From Giardia muris (Eukaryota > Fornicata > Diplomonadida > Hexamitidae): DNA of 64,000 nucleotides. Made by a program: the position numbers and the translations under genes. Shown one piece after another: positions 277-59,076 of this stretch (positions within the stretch are counted from its first letter, which is position 1; each line of letters begins with the position of its first letter). Location of the stretch: assembly GCA_006247105.1 (NCBI GenBank), contig CM016929.1:868001-932000 (forward strand), in the 5' to 3' direction. The notes beneath the pieces are model-generated. The model did no database searches. It was not told where the DNA came from and saw nothing but the letters and a program-made list of their open reading frames with translations.

Positions 277-3200
277 CTAGACGAGAGAGGCGGTCGATGC
301 ACAGAACGACGATACTCCGTCGAAGCTCCTGTGGTCGTCGAGGACTATCGAACTCACGAGGACCTCGTGGAAGGGGCTGCTCTCCTCCGCCCGCATGCTG
401 TAGCGCCAGAGATAAATTCCGATGATCAGGGCCGAGGTCGTCGCGACCCAGAGAGCGAGCCCAACCTCCGTCCGGGCACTAGTATTCTTCGTGTGGTAGA
501 GGACACACATAGGCGTGTTACCGCTCAACGTGCACTCTGCGCAGTCCTGGATGGTATCGCCGCAAGGAGTACAAACAGAGCCGTCCTTGTAGTAACCTGC
601 ATCGCAGACATCGCAGGAGCCACTATTATTTTTGTACTTCGCACAGCCTGTCCTATTATTGTTAAAAGTGCCATCAGAGTCAAGGCGGAGACCAGGATAG
701 CCATAGAACGCGCCAGCAGACGTACCATCCTTACAGTTCCCAGTCTCGTTGACTCCTGCACAGAGGAACAGAGCAGGTGCGTGGTTCTTCGGGTAGCAGC
801 CCCCCTCGATCAGCACGAAACCATTGTTGCACCCGGTGCATGCCCCTGCACCCCCAAGTATGCAGACCCCATCGGAAGTAGTATCGCTAGCGAGCGAAGT
901 GGCTGCGATTCTTCGAGTGAGGCTCGTGGTTGCTCCGACGCAGAGCCCGCCGAACGAGTAGTATCCGCTGTGGCAGCTTTTGCAGTAGAGCGTCCCCGCG
1001 ATCAGAGTGTAGTTCCGGCAGTGGGGGTCGTAGCCCATGGAGACGCACGCCGTCCCGTTGAGGGCGTAACCCTGGTCGCACTCCAGGCAGGAAGGCTGCC
1101 CATCGATCACCTGGCATTGCCTGCAGTTAGCCGGGCATCGGACGTCACAGGTCGTCTCGTAGATCGCGCGTCCGGCTGGGCAGCGCGTGCACACCTCCCG
1201 CCCGGCGTGCCAGGTGCAGCGGGTGCAGCCCGAAATCTGACAGCGCGTGCACTGGATCTGGATACCAGAATTCGGAGGCTGCACATAGCGAGTGTAGAAT
1301 CCTGTCGGGCAGTACTGCGCAATCGATAGGCCCGGAGTGTTGTAAATACCACCAGGCGAGCTCCCCCCAGGCTCCGTGCAGTTAAGTTCGGTGCCTATCA
1401 CGTAACCGTAGTCGCAAAGGCAGACTCCATTGATCGGAGCCGAGTTCTTACCGCAGGAGGGGACGCACTGAGCTCCGTCGGGGCTAATGGCCATCAGACT
1501 ATGGGCGCATCCGGTGCAAACCGAGAAGTCCCCTGGGGCTTCTGTCGTATTGGAGCTACGCCCCTGCACACAGAGGTCACAGCCATAGTGGGATCCGATG
1601 TGCGTCGAGCAATCGATGCACCTGCCATCCATGAGCATGTATCCGTCGTCACAGGCGGTGCACGTGACCCCAACGTCTACCGGTTCGCAGGAAGCACAGT
1701 TGGGGTCCGCCCCCGGGTTCGTCAGCAGCTTCTCCCGGCAGCTGCGGCAATCTCCGCAGGGCGAGAGCACGTGGCCTGACAGGCAGCGGAGACACCGCCC
1801 GGCCTCATCAACGAGGATGCAGCTCGTCGTCCCGGAGTTGAGAAGCGCGATCCCGCGCCGGCAGGTGCCCTTCGAGCAATACATAGTTTTCTCGCAGTCC
1901 TCGTTGGACGTGCAGGGCGCCGGATCGCACGTCTCCGTCGCGTGGTTGTGGACGTAGCCCGGCTTGCAGACGTCGCAGTGCACAGTCACCCCGTTCGGGC
2001 TGCTGCACTGGAGGCAGTTGACGTCTCCTCCGCGCTCCGTGCACAGCAAACACGTGCCCTGCTGTGTGAGAGCGAAGCCGGGCCTGCACTTGAGGCAGCG
2101 CGGATCGCCACTGACCGCCCCTCCCACGCACTCCATGCAGCCGAACGTCTCGTTACAAAACTTAATCTGTGTGCCACTGAGATACACGAAGTTCGCAGAT
2201 GCCGCGAGCACGGTGCAACTTCCGGATTTATTGACCTCTGAGCAGATAAAACTTCCCGGGACCGTCTTGTTTTCGAAACAACTGTTCTGGAATGTAAAAT
2301 TATTATCGCCGCTGCAGGGAAGAGTTGGAGGAGTTGAAGAAGACGACGTGCAGGATCCGTTTAAAAGAATGAGGTCAGGCGGAGTACTGGTCAGCTTACC
2401 ACATCCGCTGCAAAGCGTCGCGGCCCAGCCGGGGATCGTGTACTGATTGGCTTTGGGGCAAATGTACACGCCGACGGACGACGCGTTGTAGCAGCCGCCA
2501 TCGAAGAGAAGAAAGCCGGACGAGCACGTGGTGGGCGCACCCTGGGTGAAAGCAGTACTTCTACCGCGCGATCTGGTAGACCCAGGGGGATACGCCCCGG
2601 CCAGTTTCGCCTGCTCGCTGGTGTTCGAGACGCAGATCCCATCGACGGAGACGAGACCGGCACTGCACGTGGTGCAGAAGGTCAGAGGCGGTGTTCCAGA
2701 GAGTTGCTTACTTTCCTTGCAGATCTCATCAATCTTAGAATAGCCGGAGTCGTAGCATCCGTTGTTGTACGTGACGAAGGAGCCGACGCACCTGCTGCAG
2801 CCCGTGGCAGAGGGGTCGTTGGCGGCCTCGGGGCAGGCGCTCAGCACGATGTCCAGAGTGGTGGGGACGCAGTTTGCATTAATCGGAACAGAACCACTCG
2901 CGCACGAGGCGCACCATATGGAGTCGGAATCCTTCTTCGCGCAAGACGTGCAGGCTGGAATCTTCTGATTGCAGGCCTCGATAGTGGCAGGATTAGAATT
3001 TTTATCAGAAGAGATGTAGAAGCCAGGGGCGGCGACGGAGCAGCCGGTCTCATTGCCTGCTGTGGCGCAAAGGAGGCTTCCTGGTGCCTTGTCCGCAGTG
3101 TAGCAGCCGCCCTCGAAGAGGAAGTAGGGCGCAGCGCAGGATGCGCACTTGCCAGAAGAAGCAGGTTCGCATCCGGTTGCCTTTTCGGGAGTCACACAGA

Positions 3201-30459: not shown

Positions 30460-30508
30460 CGCTTCTCTTCGCCTCCCTCTTTTCCGTGAGATTTCAATTC
30501 AAAGCGCT

Positions 30509-31840
30509 TTACACGAGAACGACAGTCGCCTTGAAATCGCGCAGCCGCTCAAGCAAGGCTTTCGCGCGTGTCGTATGGGCGGGCTCCTCCGGCTCCTCCT
30601 CAGCCTCGACCTTCGGCTCGGTCGTCGGGCTGTCTTGCTCTGGTTCTTCCTCTTTCTCCTGTAGAGTCTCGATAAGCCCTCGGACGGCCCCCTCATCCGC
30701 GACCGACGAGCTCGGAATCCCAAGGGAGTCGAGAAGGAAGATTAGGCGCTCGTCGATAGCGACGACACGCTTCTTTCCGTGTGGGACTAGTCGTGCAGTC
30801 CCATACTCCCCCTTCTCAAGAGCTTGCTCACACCAAGCCAGAAGCTCGCTACGGTGCCTATCTCGACTCATCTTCTCAGCAGCGGCCGGGTCGAAAGTTT
30901 GAATCTGAGGTTGTTCGCGAACAACCGGCTTCAATGACTCCTCGATGACACGAAAGACACCGGACTCATCACCCTCCTCGGTGACGACAACCCCGAGTCT
31001 TTCGAGGTCACGGACGATCCCGGCCCATTTCCCACGCAAGAATGCACGGTGATCGGACAAGGCCTTGCGAGTCCGCTCCGCACGCGTGTATTCGTGCATC
31101 TCCGCCCGGTATTCGCAGTAGATCCGACTGCGAGTCCGTTCCAGCTCCGCAATTGCAGCACGCAACTCTCCCCGCTCAGCCTGTGCTCGGTTGATCTCCT
31201 CGAAGACTTGGGCGCGACTCAGTCCATCCGGGTTCAGAGCGGCCTGTAAAGAATCGGCCTCAGCCTGCAAAGGTTCTAGGGCGGTGCGAGCCTCATCAAG
31301 CGCCTTCTTCGCCTCCGCTTGCTCTGCCTCCAGCGCCTTGATCTTTTCGAGCTTCGAGCGCTGCCCTGCTAGGCGTCCAAGCTCTGCTCGACGCTCTCGT
31401 TCTTCCGAGTGACTCATTGACGTATGGTCGAGCTCGTACTCAAGAGCCTCGAGACGTTCCTCGAAACGCTCAGCCGAGATCCGACGACCATCAATGACGA
31501 GCCCTTTGCTCAGCTCTCCAAGATTCTCTTTGATCTCCCCGAGTCGCTTTCGTAGGTCACGCTGCACGTCCAAGAGCCGTCGCAACTCCTGACGCTTCTC
31601 GGTGGGAAGGGTCTCCAGTCGTAGCGCGTCACTCAACTGCCGGAAGTGCTCGAGACGGTCCAAGACGGAGGCTAGTTCGCTCCTCTTCGCCTCAAGCTCC
31701 TTCTCCACCTCCGCCCGCGCCGCCTCCATTGCCCCGTAGTCCGGCCGCGGGGGCAGCTCCGGGAGAACCGCAGGGTACGGCCCACGCTCGCGTCGCGGGG
31801 GAGCCGGAGCCTGGGCGTTCGGGACGATAATGAGGTCCAT
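30509..31840 (-). CDS. Coiled-coil protein, Bfr1-like
   Basis: A 443-residue, almost wholly helical protein. After a Pro-rich start (APAPPRRERGPYPAVLPELPPRPDY) a long coiled coil covers about 35-290, with EKRQELRRLLDVQRDLRKRLG and the glycine-containing break SKGLVIDGRRIS. The order of short helices and the R...L..L..L..QRxLR pattern resemble Bfr1-type nuclear-segregation proteins, which bind ribosomes and RNA at the ER in yeast. This is a pattern match only. The C-terminus holds an acidic stretch and ends RLRDFKATVVLV. The ATG at 31840 is preferred over 31864 because it follows the A-run GGAAAAAAAGAAGG. It is expressed in the same direction as uL6, 49 bp upstream of it. Confidence 0.6.
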   Translation of the reverse strand: MDLIIVPNAQAPAPPRRERGPYPAVLPELPPRPDYGAMEAARAEVEKELEAKRSELASVLDRLEHFRQLSDALRLETLPTEKRQELRRLLDVQRDLRKRLGEIKENLGELSKGLVIDGRRISAERFEERLEALEYELDHTSMSHSEERERRAELGRLAGQRSKLEKIKALEAEQAEAKKALDEARTALEPLQAEADSLQAALNPDGLSRAQVFEEINRAQAERGELRAAIAELERTRSRIYCEYRAEMHEYTRAERTRKALSDHRAFLRGKWAGIVRDLERLGVVVTEEGDESGVFRVIEESLKPVVREQPQIQTFDPAAAEKMSRDRHRSELLAWCEQALEKGEYGTARLVPHGKKRVVAIDERLIFLLDSLGIPSSSVADEGAVRGLIETLQEKEEEPEQDSPTTEPKVEAEEEPEEPAHTTRAKALLERLRDFKATVVLV

Positions 31841-31977
31841 CCTTCTTTTTTTCCAGTTCGTCATATCTCATCGTGGCCCAGAGGGAATAGACTGTTGACC
31901 TGGACTTGGGCTGCTTCTCGAACTCCAGGGCAGTAGTCCTATTGTCTCCTATCGTCTCTGAGGATGAGGATGAATGC

Positions 31978-32229
31978 TTGAGTGAAGGGAAGTTGATTGG
32001 AGGCTGTCTGCGTCGTTGGCAGGAGTCGTCAGACGGCCCCCTTCCTAGACGGGCGCAGGCCGTGCGCGAGGCACGATCCGGTCTCGGCCGTCGTGGCAGG
32101 CGCATCCAATGAACGGTGCGCCAGTGGCTCGGGCCTTGCTTTTGATCTCTGCCCAAAACTCCTCTCGGCCCAAATGCGATTCGAAACGATAGCGAGCAGA
32201 GGAGGGAAAACCGTTTCGAATCCACTTTG
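31978..32229 (-). ncRNA. Candidate structured ncRNA with Giardia 3'-processing motif
   Basis: The 427-bp spacer 31841-32267 is unusually long for this window and has no convincing gene. On the minus strand, CCCTTCACTCAA (31989-31978) matches the Giardia ncRNA/trans-intron processing motif TCCTTYACTCAA at 11 of 12 positions. Upstream of it on that strand are several perfect helices: an 11-bp stem (32178-32222), TTTTG/CAAAA around a loop with GCAGAGA, GGGCC/GGCCC enclosing it, GGCGCA/TGCGCC, and CACGA/TCGTG. The segment GCAGAGATCAAAAGCAAGGCCC (32152 to 32131) mirrors the U6 core ACAGAGA-N5-AGC-A-N-GGCCC in spacing. However, the motif lies about 140 nt past it, too far for a normal U6. Boundaries are estimates. 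Confidence 0.4.
32178..32222. repeat. Perfect 11-bp inverted repeat (hairpin)
   Basis: GATTCGAAACG (32178-32188) and CGTTTCGAATC (32212-32222) are exact reverse complements around a 23-base loop. CAAA (32171-32174) can pair with TTTG (32226-32229) across a small symmetric internal loop. It lies inside the candidate ncRNA and 46 bp before the uL10 start. Confidence 0.8.
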
Positions 32230-32267: not shown

Positions 32268-33227
32268 ATGTCGAAGGCCGAACGTAGACAGGCATACGTT
32301 GCCAAGTTGGAGCGCTGTTTCCGCACGTACAAACGGATCCTGCTCGTCGACGTGGACAACGTTCGCTCCCTCCAGGTTGCGCAGATCCGCCGCCTCCTTC
32401 GTGGGAAGGCCGAGCTCGTCGCGGGGAAGAACACGATCATCCGCCGCGTCATCAACGCTTCTCCTGATGAGCGCCTTCGCGCCCTGCTTCCCTACATCAA
32501 GCTCAACGTCGCGTTCGTCTTCACGAATGGAGATACTGGGTGCATCCTCCAGGCCTTCCGCAAGACCCAGCGCAAGGCCGCGGCGCGTGCGGGGATCATC
32601 GCCCCCTCGGATGTCGTTATCGAGCCGATGCTCACCCAGTCCGGGCCGGACCAGCACGCGTTCTACGCTGCCCTCGGGATCGACACGAAGATCAACAAGG
32701 GGAAGATCGAGATCGTCAACCCGGTCAACCTCATCCGTCGTGGAGAGCTCGTCACCCCGTCCCATGCAACCCTCCTTCAACGCCTCGAGATCGAACCCTT
32801 CTACTACTCGATGAAGGCCACGCTCTTCTATGATGATGGCGCCATCTATGACGCCCGCGTCCTTGAGATCGGCGAGGAGGAGATGGCTGCAAAGTGGTCG
32901 GCCGGACTCGAGCGCTTCACGGCTCTTGCGCTTGGGGCTCACTATCCTTGCCTCCCTGCCATCCCCCACATCTTCCTCAGCGCGGCCCGCGAGATTCTCG
33001 GTGCGGCCGTCGAGACGGACTTGTCGGAGCTTCCTCTCGTCTCCCGTGTCAAGGAAATCCTTGCAGATCCAAGCAAGTTCTGCGCTCCCGCCTCTGGCGC
33101 CGCAGGCGCTACTGCCGCTGCGGCCGAGCCGGCCAAGAAGGAAGAGTCGTCTGACGACGAGATCATTGGCGCTGGTGGCATGTTCGGAGACGATTCGTCT
33201 TCGGAGGAGGAGTCCTCGTCCGACTGA
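32268..33227 (+). CDS. 60S acidic ribosomal protein P0 (uL10)
   Basis: A 319-residue stalk base protein. The rRNA-binding domain has KRILLVDVDNVRSLQVAQIR, LRGKAELVAGKNTIIRRVI and LNVAFVFTNGD. The archaeal/eukaryotic insertion domain has TKINKGKIEIVNPVNLIRRGE and EPFYYSMK. The C-terminal helices for P1/P2 are followed by an Ala-rich hinge and an acidic tail. The tail ends in SSDDEIIGAGGMFGDD plus a Ser/Glu run, without the GFGLFD end common in other eukaryotes. The start is GGGTTAAATG at 32268. AGTAAA at 33243-33248, 15 bp past the stop, is the poly(A) signal. Confidence 0.96.
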   Translation: MSKAERRQAYVAKLERCFRTYKRILLVDVDNVRSLQVAQIRRLLRGKAELVAGKNTIIRRVINASPDERLRALLPYIKLNVAFVFTNGDTGCILQAFRKTQRKAAARAGIIAPSDVVIEPMLTQSGPDQHAFYAALGIDTKINKGKIEIVNPVNLIRRGELVTPSHATLLQRLEIEPFYYSMKATLFYDDGAIYDARVLEIGEEEMAAKWSAGLERFTALALGAHYPCLPAIPHIFLSAAREILGAAVETDLSELPLVSRVKEILADPSKFCAPASGAAGATAAAAEPAKKEESSDDEIIGAGGMFGDDSSSEEESSSD

Positions 33228-58260: not shown

Positions 58261-59076
58261 CGAGTCCTGGGGATCGTGCTCCACCAGGACGGACGAAGGA
58301 CATGTGAATAGCTGGGGAGGAGCACCCTCGTCCCATGCCTCCACTGGGAGAGGGAAGGGTTATTGGCGTCCAGTCCTCTGGGGAAGAGTCCTCAGGGAGT
58401 CCGGGAGGCTTCCCCTGGGGGTCGATCACACCTCCCGCTTGACGGCCGGCTCTGGGAGGGAGCCAGCAGACAGGATCCCCGCTCCTTGGTTCGGTGGGGG
58501 GCGTCCCAGCCAGAGAGGTGGCGGGAGATGCCTCCAGTCGACCGGGGGCTGGAGGCTCTTTCGACGGGGAGGCCGATGTGCTTGGAGCCCTTCGGTCCTC
58601 CTCCTCAGAGAAGGGAGAGGGGAAGAACCTGGAACGGTTACATCAAGCCGAGATCAGGAGGCCAGTCCAAGAGGGGAGACCTCGCCGTCTTCCGCCTCAT
58701 CACCATTAATGCTGTGAAAGACAGGATGGACAACACTCATCTCTCCCCCATCGGCCGGATGACCTCTTCCCACATTCCTGAGAGGGATGCTTCCGAGTCC
58801 TAATCAATAACGGAATCAGAGGATTCAGGCCTCTCTCCACGTCCCGGAACGGTTCGAGTTTAGAGCGAACGGAGGTGAGCACGGCTGGACAAGTCTTCTT
58901 GGTTTTGTGAAGATAGGCCTCAATTGCCAATATCATCGAACCCAGTGCTCGCAGAATGAACTGAAGACTTGCTTCTACACGCTTATTGTATAGGAGAAGA
59001 CCTATCTAGCCCCCAACGGCCTGACGAAGTCCTCAGAGCAGGACGCTACGAAGAGGCAGAGACAAAAGTTATTGAT
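58261..59076. other. 816-bp region without a recognised gene
   Basis: This is the longest apparently non-coding stretch of the window. The first 450 bp is GC- and purine-rich with only short open frames of unnatural composition. On the minus strand, 58706-58936 has an ATG frame of 76 codons whose first part looks protein-like (MILAIEAYLHKTKK, RSKLEPFRDVERGLNPLIPL) and stays open upstream (LLYNKRVEASLQFILRALGS). It could be the relic of a gene or a small gene. The last bases (AGACAAAAGTTATTGAT) are the promoter-like element of the gene at 59077. No tRNA-like box or processing motif was found. Confidence 0.45.

Follow-up and report, generated by a model that had tools for sequence, protein, structure and literature searches.

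A spacer beside the uL10 gene of Giardia muris very probably contains a noncoding RNA (ncRNA) gene on the minus strand. As far as can be judged from its sequence, the candidate is likely to be a box H/ACA guide RNA directed at both of the large-subunit (LSU) rRNA sites served by snR34 in yeast. The spacer is single-copy in a genome of 9,737,486 bases and 52 contigs, and lies within a stretch of 64,000 nt that was analysed as a whole (the window; G000:C5:868001-932000). Its divergent neighbor is the uL10 (P0) gene (32268..33227, plus strand; Pfam Ribosomal_L10, E 2.9e-19). On the other side is a minus-strand ORF (30509..31864) for which no Pfam family was found, and which starts at ATG 31864 or ATG 31840. 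The spacer length of 427 bp given in a preliminary description of this DNA agrees with the ATG at 31840; the length is 403 bp if the ATG at 31864 is used. The proposed gene occupies 32002..32144, as delimited by promoter spacing, hairpins, rRNA pairing, and a 3′ motif. The start is predicted at 32144-32141, and the 3′ end is placed between 32002 and 31978.

How would such a gene work? In the mechanism that we infer, transcription would begin near 32144-32141, set by an element about 40 nt upstream; this element and its partner form a divergent pair common to the candidate and uL10. Cleavage, either at the Giardia ncRNA processing motif or upstream of it, would then generate the 3′ end, so that this single-copy gene would yield a two-hairpin RNA of roughly 140-155 nt. 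With Cbf5, Gar1, Nop10, and Nhp2 bound to it in an H/ACA particle, the RNA would guide pseudouridylation of LSU rRNA, at U2254 through hairpin 1 and at U2308 through hairpin 2.

The 3′ motif is CCCTTCACTCAA at 31989-31978 on the minus strand, and as the preliminary description stated, it has one mismatch to TCCTTYACTCAA. The published degenerate consensus, [TAC]C[CA]TT[TC][ATC][CTA]T[CTA]AA, permits C at position 1, so the motif is a 12/12 match to a consensus that comes from another species, Giardia lamblia (excerpted from PMC3510501). Only two places in the 64-kb window fit this consensus, one of them being the candidate's motif (31978..31989); a looser test allowing up to two mismatches gave six matches in the window, equal to chance. 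The motif was calibrated on seven known RNAs of the same genome. These are RNase P (C4:240111-240347, 49.7 bits); RNase MRP (C4:901507-901690, 114.6 bits with the Giardia model); U6 (G000:C1:2319991-2320075, 79.3 bits and E 2.7e-16 with the Giardia model Gl_U6, RF02494), U2 (C4:888386-888521, 86.7 bits), U4 (C2:1729889-1729986, 54.1 bits), and SRP RNA (C2:2290099-2290351, 63 bits), all four of which fall under the Rfam gathering scores with E values from 1.9e-19 to 8.6e-10; and a U3-like gene (G000:C2:1376257-1376093, minus strand; loci L011 and L043), with a Rfam score of 15 bits and E 1.95. The U3-like gene lies immediately before CCCTTTACTCAA and contains CGGGATCATTTCT, CGATGAA, and CTGA, which we take to be box A-, C-, and D-like. 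The motif at the 3′ ends of U2, U4, SRP, and the U3-like gene scores 12/12, that of MRP 11/12, and those of U6 and RNase P 10/12. Random zones reach scores of 12, 11, and 10 in 0.035%, 0.32%, and 3.5% of cases, respectively; because 10/12 is reached so often, the motifs of RNase P and U6 alone prove little.

Across the genome, YCCTTYACTCAA occurs 34 times, versus 9 times for the reversed control, with 17 of the 34 loci on large contigs (L001-L017) and 17 on small ones. The large-contig loci include the candidate (L017) and the U3-like gene (L011), as well as two loci with a shared exon (L005 and L006) and a Hsp90-like locus (L014) that, on a reading of their sequences, resemble 5′ halves of trans-spliced introns; several others lie in ORF-like sequence. 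A further large-contig locus (L010, near 1440-1512, plus strand) has a box C/D-like RNA (ATGATGA ... CTGA) with its CTGA immediately before CCCTTCACTCAA. Among the small-contig loci, the three of 17 that were inspected (L018-L020) have one common repeat, and contig C11 (L020) also has rDNA; one large-contig locus (L015) carries the repeat that is also found on small contigs. Many small contigs have a repeat in which TCCTTCACTCAA recurs, and on C11 this repeat lies ~4.3 kb beyond the LSU gene (L036, near 7568). The TCCTTCACTCAA repeat on small contigs may be rDNA spacer.

The evidence for a promoter comes from what the known ncRNA genes share. An EM search of the 120 nt upstream of eight ncRNA genes, which made no use of position, returned TTGATTCGAATT for six of the eight (width 12), in which it begins 40-51 nt upstream of the 5′ end; an equally likely solution, and a width of 10, put U2 at −49 and MRP at −120. 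The element is strong at U2, U4, U6, and U3, where, as at some ribosomal-protein genes, it lies 40-46 nt upstream. The matches at RNase P and MRP, which do not fit the four-gene matrix, are weak, and neither SRP nor the L010 C/D-like gene has an element at the expected place. Across the genome, the pattern TTGAWTYGRATT occurs five times, versus three for a control. Two are 42 nt before U6 and 41 nt before U4; the others are 41, 43, and 40 nt before ORFs identified with Pfam as S25 (eS25), L26 (uL24), and an RRM protein, the last of which has an additional earlier in-frame ATG at 16 nt. Sites of the element, and of a close variant that precedes uL6, are seen at 30491-30502 of the window (minus strand) and near 1501-1512 of loci L044, L045, L046, L047, and L048. 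It is possible that ribosomal-protein genes and snRNA genes have TTGAWTYGRATT in common as a core promoter. An element score survey covered the window and 36 of 48 loci, with 12 excluded as rDNA, repeats, overlaps, or large stretches. Twenty sites score 12 or more, and each of the top eight (15.4 or more) lies upstream of a gene, the genes being U2, U4, U6, U3, S25, L26, RRM, and uL6; no such pattern is seen for sites scoring below 14. Four of these eight sites had gone into the matrix, and the pattern itself had retrieved three, which leaves uL6 as the sole independent case. Among 30 window ORFs, a strong copy is present only at uL6 (−43), and uL10 has a weak copy (−52). In G. lamblia, a start-site survey found no upstream consensus beyond the initiator, and cites older promoter proposals such as CAATTT (PMC3792122).

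The candidate RNA has its own copy of the −40 element, TCGAATCGCATT (32173..32184, minus strand), with a score of 11.9, near noise when set against the 15.4 or more of the clear cases. Scored with the U6/U2/U4(/U3) matrix it ranks sixth in the window, and with a six-gene matrix 30th; an element as good is found in 0.9% of 3000 random 230-nt stretches. A weaker copy (32216..32227, plus strand; score 8.4) faces uL10, 52 nt before its ATG. A merged pattern built from the candidate and U4 elements matches only the candidate and was set aside as not independent. Among 17 loci with the exact motif, an upstream element with a score above 8.2 is present at only two, namely the candidate and the U3-like gene, the latter having been used to train the matrix. 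If the spacing is 40-43 nt, the RNA should start within CAAAAGC, at 32144-32141. A larger design, in which uL10 mRNA and an LSU-modifying guide RNA form a divergent unit driven by a −40 code shared by ribosomal-protein, snRNA, and snoRNA genes, is possible, though somewhat less likely than not.

There is good support for the claim of the preliminary description that a processed RNA lies here, as a minus-strand gene with a motif-set 3′ end. The spacer could instead be nothing more than the uL10 promoter together with sequence flanking the downstream ORF on its 5′ side, with the motif and the rRNA pairing arising by chance and any RNA being sterile bidirectional transcription. We think this very unlikely. 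It is true that the element copies could serve uL10 alone, and excerpts of the Giardia literature describe bidirectional transcription as common (PMC12209930, PMC3792122) and the motif alone as not always signifying cleavage (PMC3510501). However, the spacer is ~400 bp long, compared to the median intergenic size of 37 bp given in the accessible part of the G. muris genome paper (PMC7641422), the motif scores 12/12 and has the strand and the distance that an RNA gene would require, and the rRNA pairing controls described below also argue against it. The longest gap between called ORFs in the compact window is elsewhere (58261-59076; 816 bp); neither the consensus processing motif nor a tRNA was found in it.

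What class of RNA might this be? The preliminary description had pointed to a U6-like core, and a string with that spacing, GCAGAGA-N5-AGCANGGCCC, with GCAGAGA, AGC, and GGCCC, is indeed present at 32152-32131 on the minus strand, once in the window, as judged by a search pattern derived from the find itself; the shorter core CAGAGA-N5-AGC is expected ~0.5 times per window. This short string and its similar spacing are the extent of the likeness to Giardia U6 (Gl_U6, RF02494). The spacer is almost certainly not a U6 gene, because U6 sits elsewhere, on contig C1 with 79.3 bits to the Giardia model, because the U6 models gave no match in the spacer at E values up to 10, and because the spacer is single-copy. 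In addition, the string (32131..32152) overlaps the predicted RNA start and is distant from the 3′ motif. The AGAGA core, just upstream of that start, is probably not transcribed, since promoter spacing places the start near 32144-32141. The covariance-model check of the spacer that the preliminary description proposed gave just two Rfam matches at E values up to 10, both at chance level (E 2.5 and 2.7).

Several other classes were considered and rejected. RNase P and MRP, suggested by size, and SRP RNA have models that match elsewhere in the genome and nothing in the spacer. For U3, suggested by a box-A-like string, there is no TGATG, and a U3-like gene is located elsewhere; a box C/D RNA likewise lacks TGATG, the sole CTGA starting 43 nt before the motif. 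As to telomerase RNA with a template for TAGGG repeats, no stretch of CCCTA repeat exceeds 4 nt. ACATAC, which would suggest U1, is absent from the candidate; the Gl_U1 model has no match anywhere in the genome, although the U2, U4, and U6 models do. U1 of G. muris may be very divergent. A 14-nt LSU antisense match (32156-32143) is mostly upstream of the predicted start, is followed by no D box, and is of a kind estimated to occur about once by chance. Comparison with a plasmid collection gave no match.

The helices described earlier are present in the spacer; its folding energy is ordinary, with a z-score of −1.23 and 21 of 200 shuffles as good. Folding energy was discarded as a test of structure, since it does not mark known RNAs of this genome either (RNase P −0.9, U2 −0.08, SRP −1.05), except for MRP (−3.41). 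The longest helix, with 18-nt arms at 32171-32188 and 32212-32229 that are 83% complementary, looks more like two copies of the promoter element in DNA, the uL10-facing copy being its second arm. A closing stem read by eye, AAGTgGATT/AATCaACTT, for an RNA of 250 nt was abandoned when the promoter element moved the start inward.

The earlier suggestion that the RNA could belong to a class other than U6 was right, and box H/ACA fits best. H/ACA RNAs have ~14 nt between the upper stem of each hairpin and the box that follows it, and both hairpins of the candidate have this distance with the stem limits given here. Hairpin 1 (32086..32135, minus strand) has a lower stem GGCC (32135-32132/32089-32086), an upper stem at 32122-32099, and pockets CGAGCCACT and TGCCACGAC, with LSU U2254 as the proposed target. 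Upper stem 1 ends 14 nt before the hinge box AGACCG (32079..32084, minus strand). The hinge, 27 nt in length, contains no full ANANNA H box, AGACCG having two of the three A residues; the sole ANANNA is at 32142, outside the hinge. Hairpin 2 (32008..32058, minus strand) has a lower stem CTGCG/CGCAG, an upper stem at 32040-32022, and two pockets, one ending in TAGGAA and the other beginning with TGCCAACGA; its proposed target is LSU U2308, or LSU U1878 with other stem limits. In H/ACA RNAs, the ACA is located three nt from the mature 3′ end. Box ACA of the candidate (32005..32007, minus strand) lies 14 nt after upper stem 2 and 15 nt before the 3′ motif, compared to the few nt reported for G. 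lamblia in excerpts of PMC3510501. A two-hairpin layout rule, composed after the candidate had been inspected, also finds both hairpins in five of 200 dinucleotide shuffles. The minimum-energy fold differs from the H/ACA fold, whose stems, when imposed, raise the energy by 5 to 21 kcal/mol.

The pockets were compared with G. muris rRNA, whose genes were located by cmscan. With several pocket limits, the best sites were LSU 2246, LSU 2254, SSU 550, SSU 858, and LSU 2043, with 21, 5, 24, 5, and 6 of 60 shuffles as good, respectively. In a strict search, U2254 was the site for hairpin 1, a result equalled by 18 of 200 shuffled pockets, and U1878 was the only site for hairpin 2, a result equalled by 9 of 200. 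From its GGGAUAAC context, we take LSU U2254 to correspond to E. coli position 2457. In the literature excerpted, snR34 guides yeast Psi2826 (Psi2457 in E. coli), a universally conserved modification, and a strain that lacks snR34 together with two C/D guides no longer has Psi2880 (PMC11121408). Because hairpin 1 gave U2254, hairpin 2 was tested against U2308, 54 nt downstream. Among 791 uridines, U2254 ranks first for hairpin 1, and U2308 ranks first for hairpin 2 with stem GGGG/CTCC and second with AGGGG/CTCCT; shuffled pockets are as good in 15 of 5000 cases for U2254, and in 1 and 57 of 5000 for U2308 with the two stem limits. We equate U2254 with yeast Psi2826 and U2308 with yeast Psi2880, each of them a site of snR34. 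This mapping uses yeast and E. coli sequence, with sites counted along the former; as a check, yeast m5C2870 maps to C2298 with the same offset. In the G. lamblia structure, m5C is at 2292 in that structure's own numbering (PMC8860606).

Pairing controls required a box distance of 13-16 nt and left stem limits free. Of 5000 shuffles, 23 are as good at U2254, and none at U2308 or at both sites; of 5000 stretches from the window, 29 are as good at U2254, one at U2308, and none at both. When boxes are ignored, U2254 and U2308 rank 9 and 14 of 762, none of 600 shuffles or 600 window stretches reaches both sites, and the summed score is reached by one of the shuffles and four of the window stretches. 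With box distances required and stem limits pooled, U1878 outscores U2308 (30.6 vs 26.8); when hairpins preceding an A.A box are considered, U2254 comes fifth among the 791 uridines. The choice of the snR34 pair was made post hoc, which we estimate to cost perhaps a factor of a few tens.

The RNA might also be a processed ncRNA of another or unassigned class, or an H/ACA RNA with other targets such as U1878, the snR34 match then being chance. The motif and promoter evidence is independent of class, there are irregularities in the H box, the hinge, and the distance from ACA to motif, two of the searches put U1878 first for hairpin 2, and GlsR28 of G. lamblia, described in part of PMC3510501 as structured yet unassigned, is a precedent. 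What makes such readings unlikely is that the two hairpins fit two sites reported for one yeast guide, and that with box distances required none of 5000 shuffles and none of 5000 window stretches matches both as well. We accordingly favor the snR34-like H/ACA guide, and infer orthology to snR34, whose human homologue we take to be U65/SNORA65. The likeness to yeast snR34 is that there are two hairpins with pockets that fit that guide's pair of LSU uridines, which are separated by 54 nt; in contrast to snR34, the candidate has no Rfam match, an imperfect H box, a 27-nt hinge, and a 3′ end that would be set by a Giardia-type motif. In excerpts of PMC3510501 and PMC3228867, the G. lamblia H/ACA snoRNAs (GlsR26, GlsR27, Gi/ACA) resemble the candidate in class, 3′ motif, and single-gene layout; compared by description, they differ in their named targets (LSU U1745 for GlsR27) and in the distance from ACA to motif, which is 15 nt in the candidate.

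No earlier report of the candidate gene was found in the open-licence literature, and the words ncRNA, snoRNA, and Rfam do not occur in the main text of the G. muris genome paper (PMC7641422). The kind of RNA is known; new are the candidate as a member of this kind, the divergent promoter that it would share with uL10, and the −40 element. What are the implications? First, if the reading is true, a conserved rRNA-modification guide would be added to the G. muris genome. Second, the candidate points to predicted pseudouridine positions at the peptidyl transferase center of the Giardia ribosome. Third, the −40 element would provide a concrete handle on the transcription of ncRNA and ribosomal-protein genes in Giardia.
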